DNA from: Leeia oryzae DSM 17879
GTDB lineage: Bacteria; Pseudomonadota; Gammaproteobacteria; Burkholderiales; Leeiaceae
Assembly: GCF_000376945.1 (NCBI RefSeq)
Contig: NZ_AQXU01000024.1
Span: 310,001 to 374,000 of the forward strand
Reading direction: 5' to 3'
DNA length: 64,000 nt
Part shown: one piece after another, positions 5,248 to 9,967 of the stretch
Layout: each line of letters starts with the position of its first letter
Position numbering within the stretch: the stretch's first letter is position 1
Notes under the pieces: model-generated
Databases searched by the model: none
Seen by the model: only the letters and a program-made list of their open reading frames with translations
What the model was told of the DNA's origin: nothing
Program-made: the position numbers and the translations under genes

Positions 5248-5979
5248 TTAAAAAGCCGGATATTCGTGGGGACGCAGGTCAAAGACCAGCACTTCAGCTG
5301 CGACACCATCCGTGAAGCGGATGTCTTTGGCGTGACGCAGGCGCGCACCATCGCCAGCGGTCATGGCGTGGCCATTGACGGTGAGTTCGCCCTGGGCCAG
5401 ATGAATGTAGACATGCCGGTCACCGTCAATTGACAGGCTGGAAGACTCGTTGCCATCAAACAAACCGGCATAGACGCGCGCATCCTGATACACCGACAGC
5501 GAGCCGTCTTCACCATCCGGAGAGATGATCAGCCGCAGTTTTCCGCGCTTGTCCGCTTCGCTAAAGTGAACTTGCTGATAGCGCGGTGTCACGCCGGTCT
5601 GGTTAGGCACAATCCAGATCTGCAGAAAATGCACGTCTTCAGCGCGCGAATGGTTGAACTCGCTATGGCGGATGCCGGTGCCGGCACTCATCATCTGTAC
5701 GTCACCCGGCTGGATAACGGAACCCGTACCCATCGAGTCTTTGTGGGCCAGGGCACCCTGCAAGACATAGGAGAAAATTTCCATGTCCCGGTGCGGGTGA
5801 GTATCAAAACCGCCGCCACCGCGGACGGTGTCGTCGTTGATCACCAGCAGGTCAGAGAAACCGCGCTGGTTCATGTCCCGGTAGTGTCCAAAAGAAAAAG
5901 TATGTTTGCTATAGAGCCAGCCGAAGTCTGCAATGCCGCGTTCGCTGGCCGGGCGCAGTTCAAAAACAGGATGTGTCAT
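5248..5979 (-). CDS. pirin family protein (quercetin 2,3-dioxygenase-like)
   Basis: 243-residue bicupin of the pirin family, similar in length and metal site to E. coli YhhW, which shows quercetinase activity in vitro. Metal ligands are His61 and His63 (DTHPHRDMEI), His105 and Glu107 (RHSEFNHS). The second cupin is at about 150-235 and ends in FDLRPHEYPAF. Start ATG at 5979 follows AAGGAGATACC. The physiological substrate of bacterial pirins is mostly unknown; some act in redox or metal-linked regulation. It lies directly downstream, on the same strand, of the tandem small-peptide array but is separated from it by a strong hairpin. Confidence 0.9.
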   Translation of the reverse strand: MTHPVFELRPASERGIADFGWLYSKHTFSFGHYRDMNQRGFSDLLVINDDTVRGGGGFDTHPHRDMEIFSYVLQGALAHKDSMGTGSVIQPGDVQMMSAGTGIRHSEFNHSRAEDVHFLQIWIVPNQTGVTPRYQQVHFSEADKRGKLRLIISPDGEDGSLSVYQDARVYAGLFDGNESSSLSIDGDRHVYIHLAQGELTVNGHAMTAGDGARLRHAKDIRFTDGVAAEVLVFDLRPHEYPAF

Positions 5980-6077: not shown

Positions 6078-6097
6078 CGGGTTTTCACGAAAATGCA

Positions 6098-6220
6098 TTA
6101 ACGGCCAAATGCGGTCAGATGGTCTCGCACATAGTCGTCGTGGTTGTGGTTCTCGGCAGAAGCTGTGCCGGCAATGGCCAGGGTGGCGATGGCCAATACG
6201 GAAGCGATCAGTTTTTTCAT
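6098..6220 (-). CDS. small secreted His/Asp-rich peptide, copy 1 of tandem array
   Basis: A 40-codon gene. The protein begins MKKLIASVLAIATLAIAG, a standard Sec signal peptide, with predicted cleavage after TASA (residue 22). The mature part is only 18 residues: ENHNHDDYVRDHLTAFGR. It contains three His and three Asp residues and no Cys. The ATG at 6220 is preceded by AAAAGGATAATCCCC, a good ribosome binding site. This copy differs from copies 2 and 3 by Arg at residue 32 (Gln in both) and from copy 2 by Ile at residue 11. No family is recognised. The His/Asp content suggests metal or proton binding, but this is only a guess. Confidence 0.75.
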   Translation of the reverse strand: MKKLIASVLAIATLAIAGTASAENHNHDDYVRDHLTAFGR

Positions 6221-6250
6221 GGGGATTATCCTTTTCAATGTCGATGCGAA

Positions 6251-6373
6251 TTAACGGCCAAAGGCGGTCAGGTGGTCTTGCACGTAGTCGTCGTGGTTGT
6301 GGTTTTCGGCAGAAGCAGTGCCTGCAATGGCCAGGGTGGCCAGGGCCAGTACGGAAGCGATCAGTTTTTTCAT
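6251..6373 (-). CDS. small secreted His/Asp-rich peptide, copy 2 of tandem array
   Basis: Middle copy of the array, exactly 153 bases from the copies on either side. It encodes 40 residues: a signal peptide (MKKLIASVLALATLAIAG, Leu at residue 11) and a mature ENHNHDDYVQDHLTAFGR. Its own ribosome binding site AAAAGGATAATCACC precedes the ATG at 6373. Most nucleotide differences from copy 3 fall at third codon positions and leave the protein unchanged, which argues that it is translated and under purifying selection. Transcribed with the other copies from upstream of 6526. Confidence 0.75.
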   Translation of the reverse strand: MKKLIASVLALATLAIAGTASAENHNHDDYVQDHLTAFGR

Positions 6374-6403
6374 GGTGATTATCCTTTTCAATGTTGATGC
6401 GAA

Positions 6404-6526
6404 TTAACGGCCAAAGGCGGTCAGGTGGTCTTGCACGTAGTCGTCATGATTGTGGTTTTCGGCAGAAGCCGTGCCTGCAATGGCCAAAGTGGCGATGGCC
6501 AGAACGGAAGCGATTAGTTTTTTCAT
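6404..6526 (-). CDS. small secreted His/Asp-rich peptide, copy 3 of tandem array
   Basis: First copy in the direction of transcription. It encodes 40 residues with the same signal peptide as copy 1 and a mature peptide identical to copy 2 (ENHNHDDYVQDHLTAFGR). ATG at 6526 is preceded by AAAAGGATCAACACC. The leader at 6527-6712 is AT-rich and holds a small hairpin (AGGTGG/CCACCT, 6563-6579). The divergent neighbour is the TfoX-like gene. Function unknown. Confidence 0.75.
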   Translation of the reverse strand: MKKLIASVLAIATLAIAGTASAENHNHDDYVQDHLTAFGR

Positions 6527-6712
6527 GGTGTTGATCCTTTTCATTTCATCGTGTTGTAGAGTAGGTGGGCAAGCCACCTTGCTGTGTGTTTGGTTTCACT
6601 TACAGCTTGGATCGAATTATTGCATCGTAAAATTAAATAAAAAAGCGCAAAAAATAGCTTTAATTAATCAGTTAATTTGATGTTTTGCGTGGGCGTATAG
6701 AGGAGGTGTTCC

Positions 6713-7039
6713 ATGGCAGCAGACCCGGTTCTAACGGATGAAATGCGGGCGGCCTTGTTTGGCCTGCCTGGGTATCAGGAAAAAAAGATGTTTGGCGGTA
6801 TCTGCTGGATGGTGAACGGGCACCTGCTGTGCTGTACCCGCGGGGATAGATACATGCTTCGGGTCGGCAAGGAAAACGAGGCTAAGTGGCTGCAGTACCC
6901 CGGGGTAACGCCGGTTGAGGGGCCGCGGAAATCCATGCCTGGGTATATCTGGGTGGAGAGCGCCTATGCGACAGGCCCTGCACTGGAAACCTGGGTGAAC
7001 AGGGCGCTTGCCTTTGTGCAGTTGCTGCCCCCCAAGTAA
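6713..7039 (+). CDS. TfoX/Sxy N-terminal domain protein
   Basis: 108-residue protein consisting only of the TfoX N-terminal domain: KKMFGGICWMVNGHLLCCT (residues 25-43), then MLRVGKENE and PGYIWVESA, with a hydrophobic C-terminus. Full TfoX/Sxy competence regulators also carry a C-terminal helical domain that is absent here. Stand-alone versions are common and of unknown function, so a role in competence should not be assumed. AGGAGGTG at 6700-6707 is a near-perfect ribosome binding site. Divergent from the peptide array and convergent with modE. Confidence 0.85.
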   Translation: MAADPVLTDEMRAALFGLPGYQEKKMFGGICWMVNGHLLCCTRGDRYMLRVGKENEAKWLQYPGVTPVEGPRKSMPGYIWVESAYATGPALETWVNRALAFVQLLPPK

Positions 7040-7046
7040 AGGTGGG

Positions 7047-7859
7047 TTAGCCGGTGACGCCCACAATGACGCTGGACGCTTTGAAAATGGCGGTAATGGT
7101 TTGCCCGACGGCTAGCCCGAGTTGCTGGCTGCTTTCGTTGGTGACCATGGCGGCAAGGGTGCCCCCGCCAGGCAAGGCCAGCACGACTTCGGTATTGATC
7201 GCACCCGTTTGTAATCGGACAATCTCGCCGGTCAGGCGGTTTCTGGCAGAGAAACCGATTTGGGTATTGGCTTCTATCAGGATGATGGATGACGATTTCA
7301 CCAGTGCGATCACTTCTGTGCCGGTTGCCAGCCCGAGTGCCGTGGTGCTTTCGCTGGTAACGGTTGCAATCAGTACTTGCCCGCCTGCCAGTTGAATCTG
7401 GATTTCATCATTGACGGCTCCTTTTTGTACCTGCATGACTGTGCCGTAAAACTGGTTGCGGGCGGAGGTTTTCATGTTCAGTCTCTTCAGTAAGGCAAAA
7501 TCATCGCCCATGCCGCTGGCTTGCTGATCCAGCTCAGCCAGGAATTGCTGGTGTGCCACGGCGATGCGCTGATAGTGGCTGACCAATTGTTGTCCGCGTG
7601 CCGTCAGCCGCGTGCTGCCACCGCCTTTGCCGCCCACCAGCCGTTCTACCAGCGGTTCGCCCGCGAGGTTGTTCATGGTGTCGATGGCATCCCAGGCGGC
7701 TTTGTAACTCAGACTGACTGCTTTGGCTGCTTTGGTGATTGAGCCTTCGGTGGCAATGGCGTTGAGCAGGTCGATGCGGCTTTGTCCGCCCAGCGCCTGG
7801 CCGCCAATGGTCATCCAGACCGATCCTTGCAGATGAATGTCGCCTGGTTGTTCAGTCAT
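7047..7859 (-). CDS. modE: molybdate-responsive transcriptional regulator ModE
   Basis: 270-residue ModE. Residues about 15-120 form the LysR-like winged helix (HTH around GSITKAAKAVSLSYKAAW, 39-56), followed by two Mop molybdate-binding modules at about 131-197 and 203-268, each opening with (T)SARNxxxG. Molybdate-bound ModE dimers repress modABC and activate some Mo-enzyme genes. The ATG at 7859 overlaps the end of modC by eight bases, so modE is the last gene of the modABCE operon. A palindromic ModE-type site lies before modA, which suggests autoregulation. Confidence 0.95.
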   Translation of the reverse strand: MTEQPGDIHLQGSVWMTIGGQALGGQSRIDLLNAIATEGSITKAAKAVSLSYKAAWDAIDTMNNLAGEPLVERLVGGKGGGSTRLTARGQQLVSHYQRIAVAHQQFLAELDQQASGMGDDFALLKRLNMKTSARNQFYGTVMQVQKGAVNDEIQIQLAGGQVLIATVTSESTTALGLATGTEVIALVKSSSIILIEANTQIGFSARNRLTGEIVRLQTGAINTEVVLALPGGGTLAAMVTNESSQQLGLAVGQTITAIFKASSVIVGVTG

Positions 7860-8514
7860 GGCTTTGTCCTTCGTGGATGTGCAGCACGGCATCGCCAAAT
7901 GCGCTCAGGTCTTCCGGATCGTGCGTGATCAGCAGCATGGGGATCGCCAGTTGCTGCTGCAGTTCGTCCAGTATCTGGCGCATGCTGCTGCGCAGGGTGG
8001 TATCCAGTGCCGCAAAGGGTTCGTCCAGCAGCAGAATGTCTGGTTCGGTAATCAAGGTTCTGGCCAGTGCCACACGCTGCTTTTGTCCGCCGGAAATACT
8101 GGCAGGGTACTGGTCTGCCAGCGCGGCAATGCCCAGCCGCTGCAGCCAGTGTTCCACGCCTGGGTGTTGTGCCTGTTTGCGCGGGTTGCGCCAGCCGTGC
8201 TGCAAGCCAAAGGCAATGTTTTGCCGGACGGTCAGATGCGGGAACAAGGCGTAATCCTGAAACAGATAACCGGTACGCCGCTGCTGCGGACTCAGGTTAA
8301 TGCTGCGTTGTGTGTCCAGCACGGTCCGGTCACCAAGGCGGATATGCCCCTCGTCGGGCGTCATCAACCCGGCAATGGCACGCATGGTCAGGCTTTTACC
8401 TGCGCCGGACGGGCCAAACACGACCATGCGTGACTGAGACGTCTGGAACCGGACATCTAGCCGGAAAGCCCGGTCTTTATGCTGGAACTGTTTCTGGATG
8501 TGCATCTCAAGCAT
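7852..8514 (-). CDS. modC: molybdate ABC transporter ATP-binding protein, short form
   Basis: 220-residue ATPase of the molybdate importer. Walker A GPSGAGKS is at 34-41, the signature SISGGQKQR at 139-147, Walker B ILLLDEP at 160-166 and the switch His198 (THD). Typical ModC proteins are about 350 residues and end in a regulatory TOBE/Mop domain; this one stops right after the ATPase fold. Molybdate sensing may therefore rest only on ModE encoded by the overlapping next gene. Start ATG at 8514 overlaps the end of modB by eight bases; Met4 is an alternative start. Confidence 0.93.
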   Translation of the reverse strand: MLEMHIQKQFQHKDRAFRLDVRFQTSQSRMVVFGPSGAGKSLTMRAIAGLMTPDEGHIRLGDRTVLDTQRSINLSPQQRRTGYLFQDYALFPHLTVRQNIAFGLQHGWRNPRKQAQHPGVEHWLQRLGIAALADQYPASISGGQKQRVALARTLITEPDILLLDEPFAALDTTLRSSMRQILDELQQQLAIPMLLITHDPEDLSAFGDAVLHIHEGQSHD

Positions 8515-9202
8515 GGGGAGAGCCTTGTCGCTGGTGGCCTGGTAGCAGCTTGCCGGCCAGTAACAAAATCACGATGCAGACCGCAGAAATCAGCAATACC
8601 AGCCGGTTGGCCAGCGGGTCATCTCCTGCTTGTACGGCTTCGTACACGGCGATAGACAGGGTTTGGGTTTGCCCGGGGATGCTGCCTGCCACCATCAGGG
8701 TGGCGCCGAATTCGCCCATGGCCCGGGCAAAGGCCAGCAGTACGCCAGCCAGAATGGCGCGCCAGGCCAGTGGCAGGGTGACCCGGGCAAAAATGGCCAT
8801 CGGGCCCAGTCCCAGCACCCGGGCGGCGTCTTCCAGTTGCGGGTCGGTATTTTCGAAGGCAGCGCGTGCAGATTTGAACACCAGCGGGAAAGCCACCAGA
8901 CTGGCCGCGATCACCGCCCCTTGCCAGCTAAAGACCAGCCGGATGCCCAGACTGTGTTCCAGCCAGCCGCCCAGCCAGCCTTTGCGGCCGATGAGTACCA
9001 GCAGGTAGTACCCGAGTACGGTAGGGGGCATCACCAGCGGTAGCGTCAGGATCGTATCCAGTAGCTCTTTACCCCAAAAACGGCCACGTGCCAGCAGGTA
9101 GCCTGCTGCCACGCCCAGCACCAGGTTGATGGTAGTGGCCCAGCCTGCGACTTTGAGCGACAGGCCGAGTGCGATCCAGGCGGCGTTCATGGTGTCAAAC
9201 AT
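8507..9202 (-). CDS. modB: molybdate ABC transporter permease
   Basis: 231-residue inner-membrane permease with about five hydrophobic segments and the EAA loop (EDAARVLGLGPMAIFARVTLP, near residues 125-145) that contacts ModC. PLVMPPTVLGYYLL near residue 57 and ARAMGEFGATLMVAG near 160-175 are characteristic of ModB. It is three bases downstream of modA and overlaps modC, consistent with one transcript. Confidence 0.95.
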   Translation of the reverse strand: MFDTMNAAWIALGLSLKVAGWATTINLVLGVAAGYLLARGRFWGKELLDTILTLPLVMPPTVLGYYLLVLIGRKGWLGGWLEHSLGIRLVFSWQGAVIAASLVAFPLVFKSARAAFENTDPQLEDAARVLGLGPMAIFARVTLPLAWRAILAGVLLAFARAMGEFGATLMVAGSIPGQTQTLSIAVYEAVQAGDDPLANRLVLLISAVCIVILLLAGKLLPGHQRQGSPHA

Positions 9203-9205
9203 CGG

Positions 9206-9967
9206 TCAGGGCTTGGTAAAGCCGTACTTGGCCAGAATGGCCTGCCCGCTGGCGGATTGCACAAACGTGCTAAAGCGGCTGGCCAGGTTTTTATGCTGGC
9301 TTTGGGCGATGGTGGCGATCGGGTAGGTAATAGGCTCATCCAGCGGAACGCGCAAAACCACCTTGACCTTGTCTTTCATTAGCAAGGCGTCTGTGACATA
9401 GACAAAACCGGCCTCGACTTCTGCCCGGGCAACATAGTCCAGACTCTGGCGGACGGATTGGGTATAGATGGCTTTCTTTTCCAGCTGTGGCCAGAGCTTT
9501 GCCTTGGTCAAACCGTCTTTGGCATAGCGCCCGGCGGGGACGCTGGCCGGATTGCCAAGTGCCATTTTCTGGATAGTTGGCTGGTTCAGGCCAGCTAGGG
9601 TAGTCATCTGGTAGCTGGCATCAGCCGGTACGACCAGGACAAGGCTATTACCGGCAAAACGCTTGCGGCTGCCAGCTTCCAGCAACTGCTGGGCCGCAGC
9701 CTTGTCCATGGCGTCTTCGTCGGCCGTGGCCAGCACATCAACGGGCGCACCCTGCGCAATCTGCTGGACCAGCACATCGCTTGCAGCAAAGTTAAAGACG
9801 ATTTTGTCAGCCGGATTAGCGGCTTCGAAGCTTTGCCCTAACTGGCGGAACGCATTGGTCAGGCTGGCTGCGGCAGAGACGGTCAGCGTTTCTGCGGAGA
9901 CCAGCGGGGTACAAGACAGGTACAGCAGACCGAGCAATGTATTACGTAGCAGGCGGCTTGACGGCAT
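9206..9967 (-). CDS. modA: periplasmic molybdate-binding protein
   Basis: 253-residue substrate-binding protein of the molybdate importer. It has a Sec signal peptide (to about residue 25, ending VSAE) and then TLTVSAAASLTNAFRQLG, the usual opening of mature ModA with Ser residues that bind the oxyanion. Further ModA features are NFAASDVLVQQIAQGAPVDV and the LGNPASVPAGRYAK stretch. First gene of modABCE. The start ATG at 9967 lies 20 bases downstream of the ModE-like palindrome. Confidence 0.95.
   Translation of the reverse strand: MPSSRLLRNTLLGLLYLSCTPLVSAETLTVSAAASLTNAFRQLGQSFEAANPADKIVFNFAASDVLVQQIAQGAPVDVLATADEDAMDKAAAQQLLEAGSRKRFAGNSLVLVVPADASYQMTTLAGLNQPTIQKMALGNPASVPAGRYAKDGLTKAKLWPQLEKKAIYTQSVRQSLDYVARAEVEAGFVYVTDALLMKDKVKVVLRVPLDEPITYPIATIAQSQHKNLASRFSTFVQSASGQAILAKYGFTKP

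Follow-up and report, generated by a model that had tools for sequence, protein, structure and literature searches.

Three intact 40-codon genes lie head-to-tail on the minus strand of the window (the whole 64,000-nucleotide stretch of Leeia oryzae DSM 17879 analysed here), at positions 6098-6526, in exact 153-bp repeats (Table 1). A sequence-only reading of this DNA had described three 153-base units, each with its own ribosome site, and that description agrees with both the ORF translations and TRF, which returns a single array at 6097-6543 (period 153, 2.9 copies, 92% matches, no indels); a GGAT-type ribosome site stands ahead of every ATG. The precursor of all three copies reads MKKLIASVLA(I/L)ATLAIAGTASAENHNHDDYV(Q/R)DHLTAFGR, in which MKKLIASVLA(I/L)ATLAIAGTASA is followed by the mature part ENHNHDDYV(Q/R)DHLTAFGR, and a comparison of the translations bears out the earlier statement that variation is confined to residues 11 and 32. 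As for the signal peptide and 18-residue mature peptide of the same reading, the export signal is supported by sequence, and export itself is a prediction. The mature product would be an exported peptide of about 18 residues, (E/D)NHNHDDYxxxxxxAFG(R/K), left after predicted cleavage at TASA.

Table 1. The array and its flanking features, in window coordinates
Feature	Position	Strand	Description	Basis
Copy a	6404..6526	-	40-aa precursor with mature part ENHNHDDYVQDHLTAFGR; heads the transcription unit	ORF, translation, dN/dS
Copy b	6251..6373	-	like copy a but L11	ORF, translation, dN/dS
Copy c	6098..6220	-	like copy a but R32	ORF, translation, dN/dS
5' leader	6527..6615	-	two predicted hairpins ahead of the ribosome site	sequence and folding
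Array-specific promoter-like element, CGCTTTTTTAT-N10-GATGCAATAAT	6616..6647	-		conservation at four array heads
Perfect 15-bp inverted repeat, 11-nt loop	6039..6079	-	just past the last copy, before pirin	read from sequence
Pirin/quercetinase-like gene	5248..5979	-	downstream neighbour of the array	PF02678, E 1.7e-32 on the longest ORF
TfoX_N-domain gene	6713..7039	+	divergent neighbour	PF04993, E 1.5e-11

Transcription of the array runs towards the pirin gene, which lies downstream of it, and away from the divergent TfoX-like gene; both neighbours had been named from sequence alone, and Pfam confirms both. For the pirin gene we prefer the ATG near 5979 to the TTG of the longest ORF, which extends to 6036. 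The inverted repeat that follows the last copy is likely the 3'-end hairpin of the array transcript; no U-tract accompanies it on the minus strand, so that it would be a putative terminator or 3' stabiliser. Sigma-70 and terminator scans of the window gave nothing above shuffles. On the far side of the TfoX-like gene (7047-9967) stand a ModE-like regulator, with TOBE and LysR-type HTH domains, and then ORFs resembling modC, modB and modA of molybdate uptake, a gene order that appears to be conserved in the congener G002 (L055).

Distribution of the peptide family

A second array is found in the same genome (L018, G000:C25), where two copies and a 78-residue paralogue are set between a leuA-LysR pair and parB. 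These copies read MKTLIAS(L/F)VALMTLAAAGTASAENHNHDDYVRDHIQAFGR; MKK, a hydrophobic stretch and TASA characterize all of the short copies, with MKT replacing MKK in this array. The paralogue (L018:8431-8667), which also looks exported, carries the motif SHNHDDYVADRKLAFG internally, and the peptide motif seems to behave as a module that can move. A GCACAP stretch precedes the motif in this protein, and its gene is without the array promoter element.

Here, too, at the same leuA-parB position, the congener G002 has seven copies (L019) in two sub-arrays of three and four, with a period of 179 bp and a mature peptide that reads DNHNH(D/E)DYLAQK(Q/K)QAFGK. Between both sub-arrays (L019:8562-8753) an AraC-type regulator survives as a 63-aa remnant (HTH_18, E 2e-16), possibly a decayed regulator or the trace of an insertion. 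A third genome, that of another congener (G001), has zero copies by whole-genome search. Within the genus it was whole genomes that were searched (G000, G001 and G002), because scans of genome collections may omit near relatives.

The family is thus present in two species and always as multi-copy arrays (3+2 copies in the window genome, 3+4 in G002), and the multi-copy state is old and recurrent. Since both species have arrays at parB, this site is shared and probably ancestral. At the position of the window array, G002 has instead a DUF1275-like gene (judged by eye) between modE and pirin, and the array most closely related to the window array is the one at parB in the window genome; taken together, these two observations make the window array look like a later, transposed or duplicated one.

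Beyond the genus, the exact motif HNH[DE]DY-x6-AFG is absent from ~85,000 species genomes and from viral contigs, and tblastn against plasmids and phages came back empty. Profile searches covered 399 genomes from the order and 369 from the class, and yielded signal-peptide matches and chance hits. Full-length profile matches outside the genus are mostly signal-peptide similarity (L088, for example, is a pseudopilin-like protein), and those to the mature part are partial (10-13 residues), at E-values that chance alone would produce across 399 genomes; the ones examined fall in or across unrelated genes such as L069. Pfam, NCBIfam, PHROGs, PADLOC and the PDB hold no real match to the peptide, Rfam gave nothing above threshold, and literature searches found no description of it. 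Within the searches made, the family is restricted to one genus.

Selection and expression

An overwhelming excess of synonymous change between copies shows that these ORFs are translated and that purifying selection on them is strong. Copies a and c of the window differ by 13 synonymous and 1 non-synonymous substitutions (dS 0.65, dN 0.01), and the two copies of the second array by 17 and 1 (dS 1.14, dN 0.01), the single non-synonymous change of the latter pair falling outside the mature part. Under a binomial null in which substitutions are distributed in proportion to synonymous and non-synonymous sites, these counts have p values of 1.5e-7 and 4.5e-10, respectively, and the earlier claim of translation under purifying selection holds at 13:1 and 17:1. 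With dS this high and dN near 0.01, the copies are neither a recent duplication artefact nor homogenised; the protein has long been kept while silent sites diverged.

The regularity of the 153-bp repeats and the structured leader could be taken to mean that the array acts as DNA or RNA repeats, with the ORFs incidental and no protein gene present. Such a view is hardly credible beside a synonymous excess of this size, a reading frame that is intact in 12/12 short copies at three loci whose periods differ (153, 164 and 179 bp), and starts and ribosome sites that are conserved among the short copies as well. A lack of conserved homologues, or broken frames in relatives, was the outcome on which the sequence-only reading was to fall; what the congener shows is conserved arrays with every short-copy frame unbroken. 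Its suggestion of dosage amplification likewise gains from these homologous arrays, from the full set of intact short copies and from the promoter that the arrays have in common.

This promoter is recognized as an element, CGCTTTTNNAT-N10-GATGNAATAAT, which alignment places upstream of 4/4 array heads with exactly fixed spacing. In the three genomes scanned, exact matches occur only at these four array heads, the next-best sites having 2-3 mismatches. It can be read as a promoter whose -10 (AATAAT) is good and whose -35 is poor, a pairing that makes an activator plausible. The LysR gene next to the second array is weakened as the obvious regulator, its orthologue being unlinked in G002. In the promoter of the second array (L018:7708-7745), the -10 is overlapped or followed by two palindromes, ATGGATG-N8-CATCCAT and TTAGTGCACTAA, neither of which is conserved at the remaining heads.

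The leaders, 85-95 nt in length, differ in sequence between loci, and all four fold into two consecutive hairpins, the first of which is in every case no more than a few nucleotides from the predicted start. Their folding z-scores (-1.4, -2.65, -2.3 and -2.3) are each modest alone, and because the two G002 leaders are near-identical they amount to three independent cases, not four. The ompA mRNA of E. coli is stabilised by a 5' stem-loop of such kind, as is well established; PMC7509114 cites the primary papers. Codon choice offers a further indication: in the lower-GC G002, C-ending codons fill 77% of two-fold sites in the copies versus 45% in eight neighbour genes, with a weaker contrast in the window genome (77% and 57% versus 54%). 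The unique promoter, the two-hairpin leaders and the codon bias together suggest, without proving, a high output of the arrays.

Candidate roles for the exported peptide

We take the family to encode a genus-restricted, dosage-amplified and probably highly expressed exported peptide, and the reading that we favour, at a probability of roughly 40%, is that of an abundant periplasmic or extracellular metal-binding peptide, serving as a metal buffer or shuttle of the envelope. Each array would be a discrete transcription unit, in which the array-specific promoter and the two-hairpin 5' leader are followed by 2-4 head-to-tail genes, and with a ribosome site for each gene one mRNA would yield several near-identical peptides. 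Cleavage by signal peptidase after TASA would then release ~18 residues, presumably at a high level, into the periplasm or medium, where the invariant H-N-H-D/E-D-Y core may bind divalent metal, for example Cu(II), Zn(II) or Ni(II), the AFG-R/K end perhaps acting as a docking, export or stability element.

Metal binding is favoured because the HxHxD core is invariant. Across two species, and with silent sites near saturation, the mature residues H3 N4 H5, D/E6, D7 Y8 and A15 F16 G17 do not change, and the core is retained even in the rearranged 78-residue paralogue; a divalent-metal site formed by H-x-H-x-D and Tyr is plausible. In three full-length profile matches the similarity continues beyond the signal peptide, into the N-terminal His tail of an exported protein that handles copper. 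By NCBIfam one of these is a CopI-like cupredoxin (L022), and by eye the other two are a His-rich, copper-storage-like protein (L033) and a CusF-like protein (L034). These resemblances are weak (E 0.002-0.009 per genome) and owed in part to the signal peptide. Copper efflux in PcoB depends on a disordered tail rich in His and Met (PMC12509749). The array peptide has only two invariant His, with Cys and Met absent, and metal-resistance genes are found beside none of the arrays. Cleavage at TASA|ENH would place His at mature position 3 in the window genome, as in an ATCUN site (X-X-His at a free N-terminus); in G002, cleavage at TASA|ADNH would move it to position 4, so that conservation of a strict ATCUN site there is improbable, and the 78-residue paralogue has none.

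Metal binding does not account for the invariant AFG. Conservation at both mature ends (NHNHDDY and AFG) suggests a surface for contact with protein or membrane, and with it a micro-peptide of envelope stress or envelope structure, chaperone-like or binding LPS or protein in the periplasm or membrane, for which gene dosage would secure a stoichiometric supply and any metal binding would be incidental. The dosage design and probable high expression fit such a role, as does the continuous helix predicted by AlphaFold, and Burkholderiales do have several small exported DUF4148 proteins per genome with no known function (PMC7549894). Little weight attaches, however, to a helix modelled from one 40-residue sequence, and no envelope-stress gene is adjacent; we regard this role as somewhat unlikely, if worth keeping in mind.

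A short exported peptide with an invariant core might also be a secreted signal that a receptor senses, its output boosted by tandem copies. The weak likeness to Phr-type precursors (PhrC_PhrF, E 0.038) and the LysR gene divergent from the second array point in this direction, but the Phr matches are under the curated cut-off and run mainly across the signal peptide, that LysR gene has its orthologue elsewhere in G002, and no locus is associated with a receptor or sensor kinase. The mature sequence is, moreover, near-identical across copies, leaving no signal diversity, and signalling is accordingly doubtful. That the peptide is exported, very short and multi-copy could also describe a small bacteriocin- or antimicrobial-like product released against competitors, an option made very improbable by its acidity (net charge about -1 to -3 at pH 7), the lack of Cys and of an adjacent immunity gene or dedicated exporter, and strong conservation in place of diversification.

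A bolder and unlikely reading is that the arrays constitute a new Gram-negative secreted peptide system, genus-specific and array-encoded, in which a short peptide is released in quantity as a ribosomally made metallophore or communal signal, and the number of gene copies together with a dedicated promoter sets the output. Should the peptide prove to bind metal or to signal, a Gram-negative genus would have in it a minimal secreted tool made by the ribosome. With a mature product of 18 residues, this is a real gene family below the size range of most annotation pipelines; its multi-copy arrays are old and have a private promoter, and by exact motif about 85,000 other species lack it.

Comparison with known peptide families

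Small exported proteins in several copies already have parallels. The DUF4148 proteins (PF13663) of Burkholderiales are likewise small signal-peptide proteins of unknown function with several per genome, eight of them in B. pseudomallei K96243 (PMC7549894); they differ in having 90-113 aa and a conserved ~54-aa domain, as opposed to an 18-aa mature part encoded in head-to-tail arrays, and PF13663 is absent among Pfam matches to the array peptide up to E 10. The mini_HHHH family (NF040554) shares the very short precursor, the signal peptide and, by its name, a His motif. Its match to the array peptide (E 0.024, 14.8 bits against a cut-off of 40) covers the signal peptide and a few residues, and in 200 genomes of the order no mini_HHHH match exceeds the cut-off; unlike the HHHH motif, the core NHNHDDY contains no His run.

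The CopI-type cupredoxins (NF051440/NF047895) have a similar N-terminal exported tail, HDNHAHKITDVVKKEQKAWG versus ENHNHDDYVQDHLTAFG (L022), a weak similarity, but the 40-aa array peptide is without their cupredoxin domain (no Copper-bind or Cupredoxin match). A CopI cupredoxin was also considered as the source of the peptide and set aside: the motif is missing from the cupredoxin of G002, and nothing closer than a distant cupredoxin occurs in the window genome. With Rap-Phr signalling peptides (PF11131, TIGR04429) the array peptide shares a short exported precursor of about 40 aa. Both profiles score below cut-off (14 bits versus 25 and 13.1 versus 25), and no Rap-type receptor lies beside the arrays, whose neighbours are pirin, TfoX, leuA, LysR and parB/parA.

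The array peptide belongs to no named family among those tested. What is new is not a demonstrated mechanism but the family and the array design, set apart by an 18-residue product, tandem arrays at two sites and an array-specific promoter.
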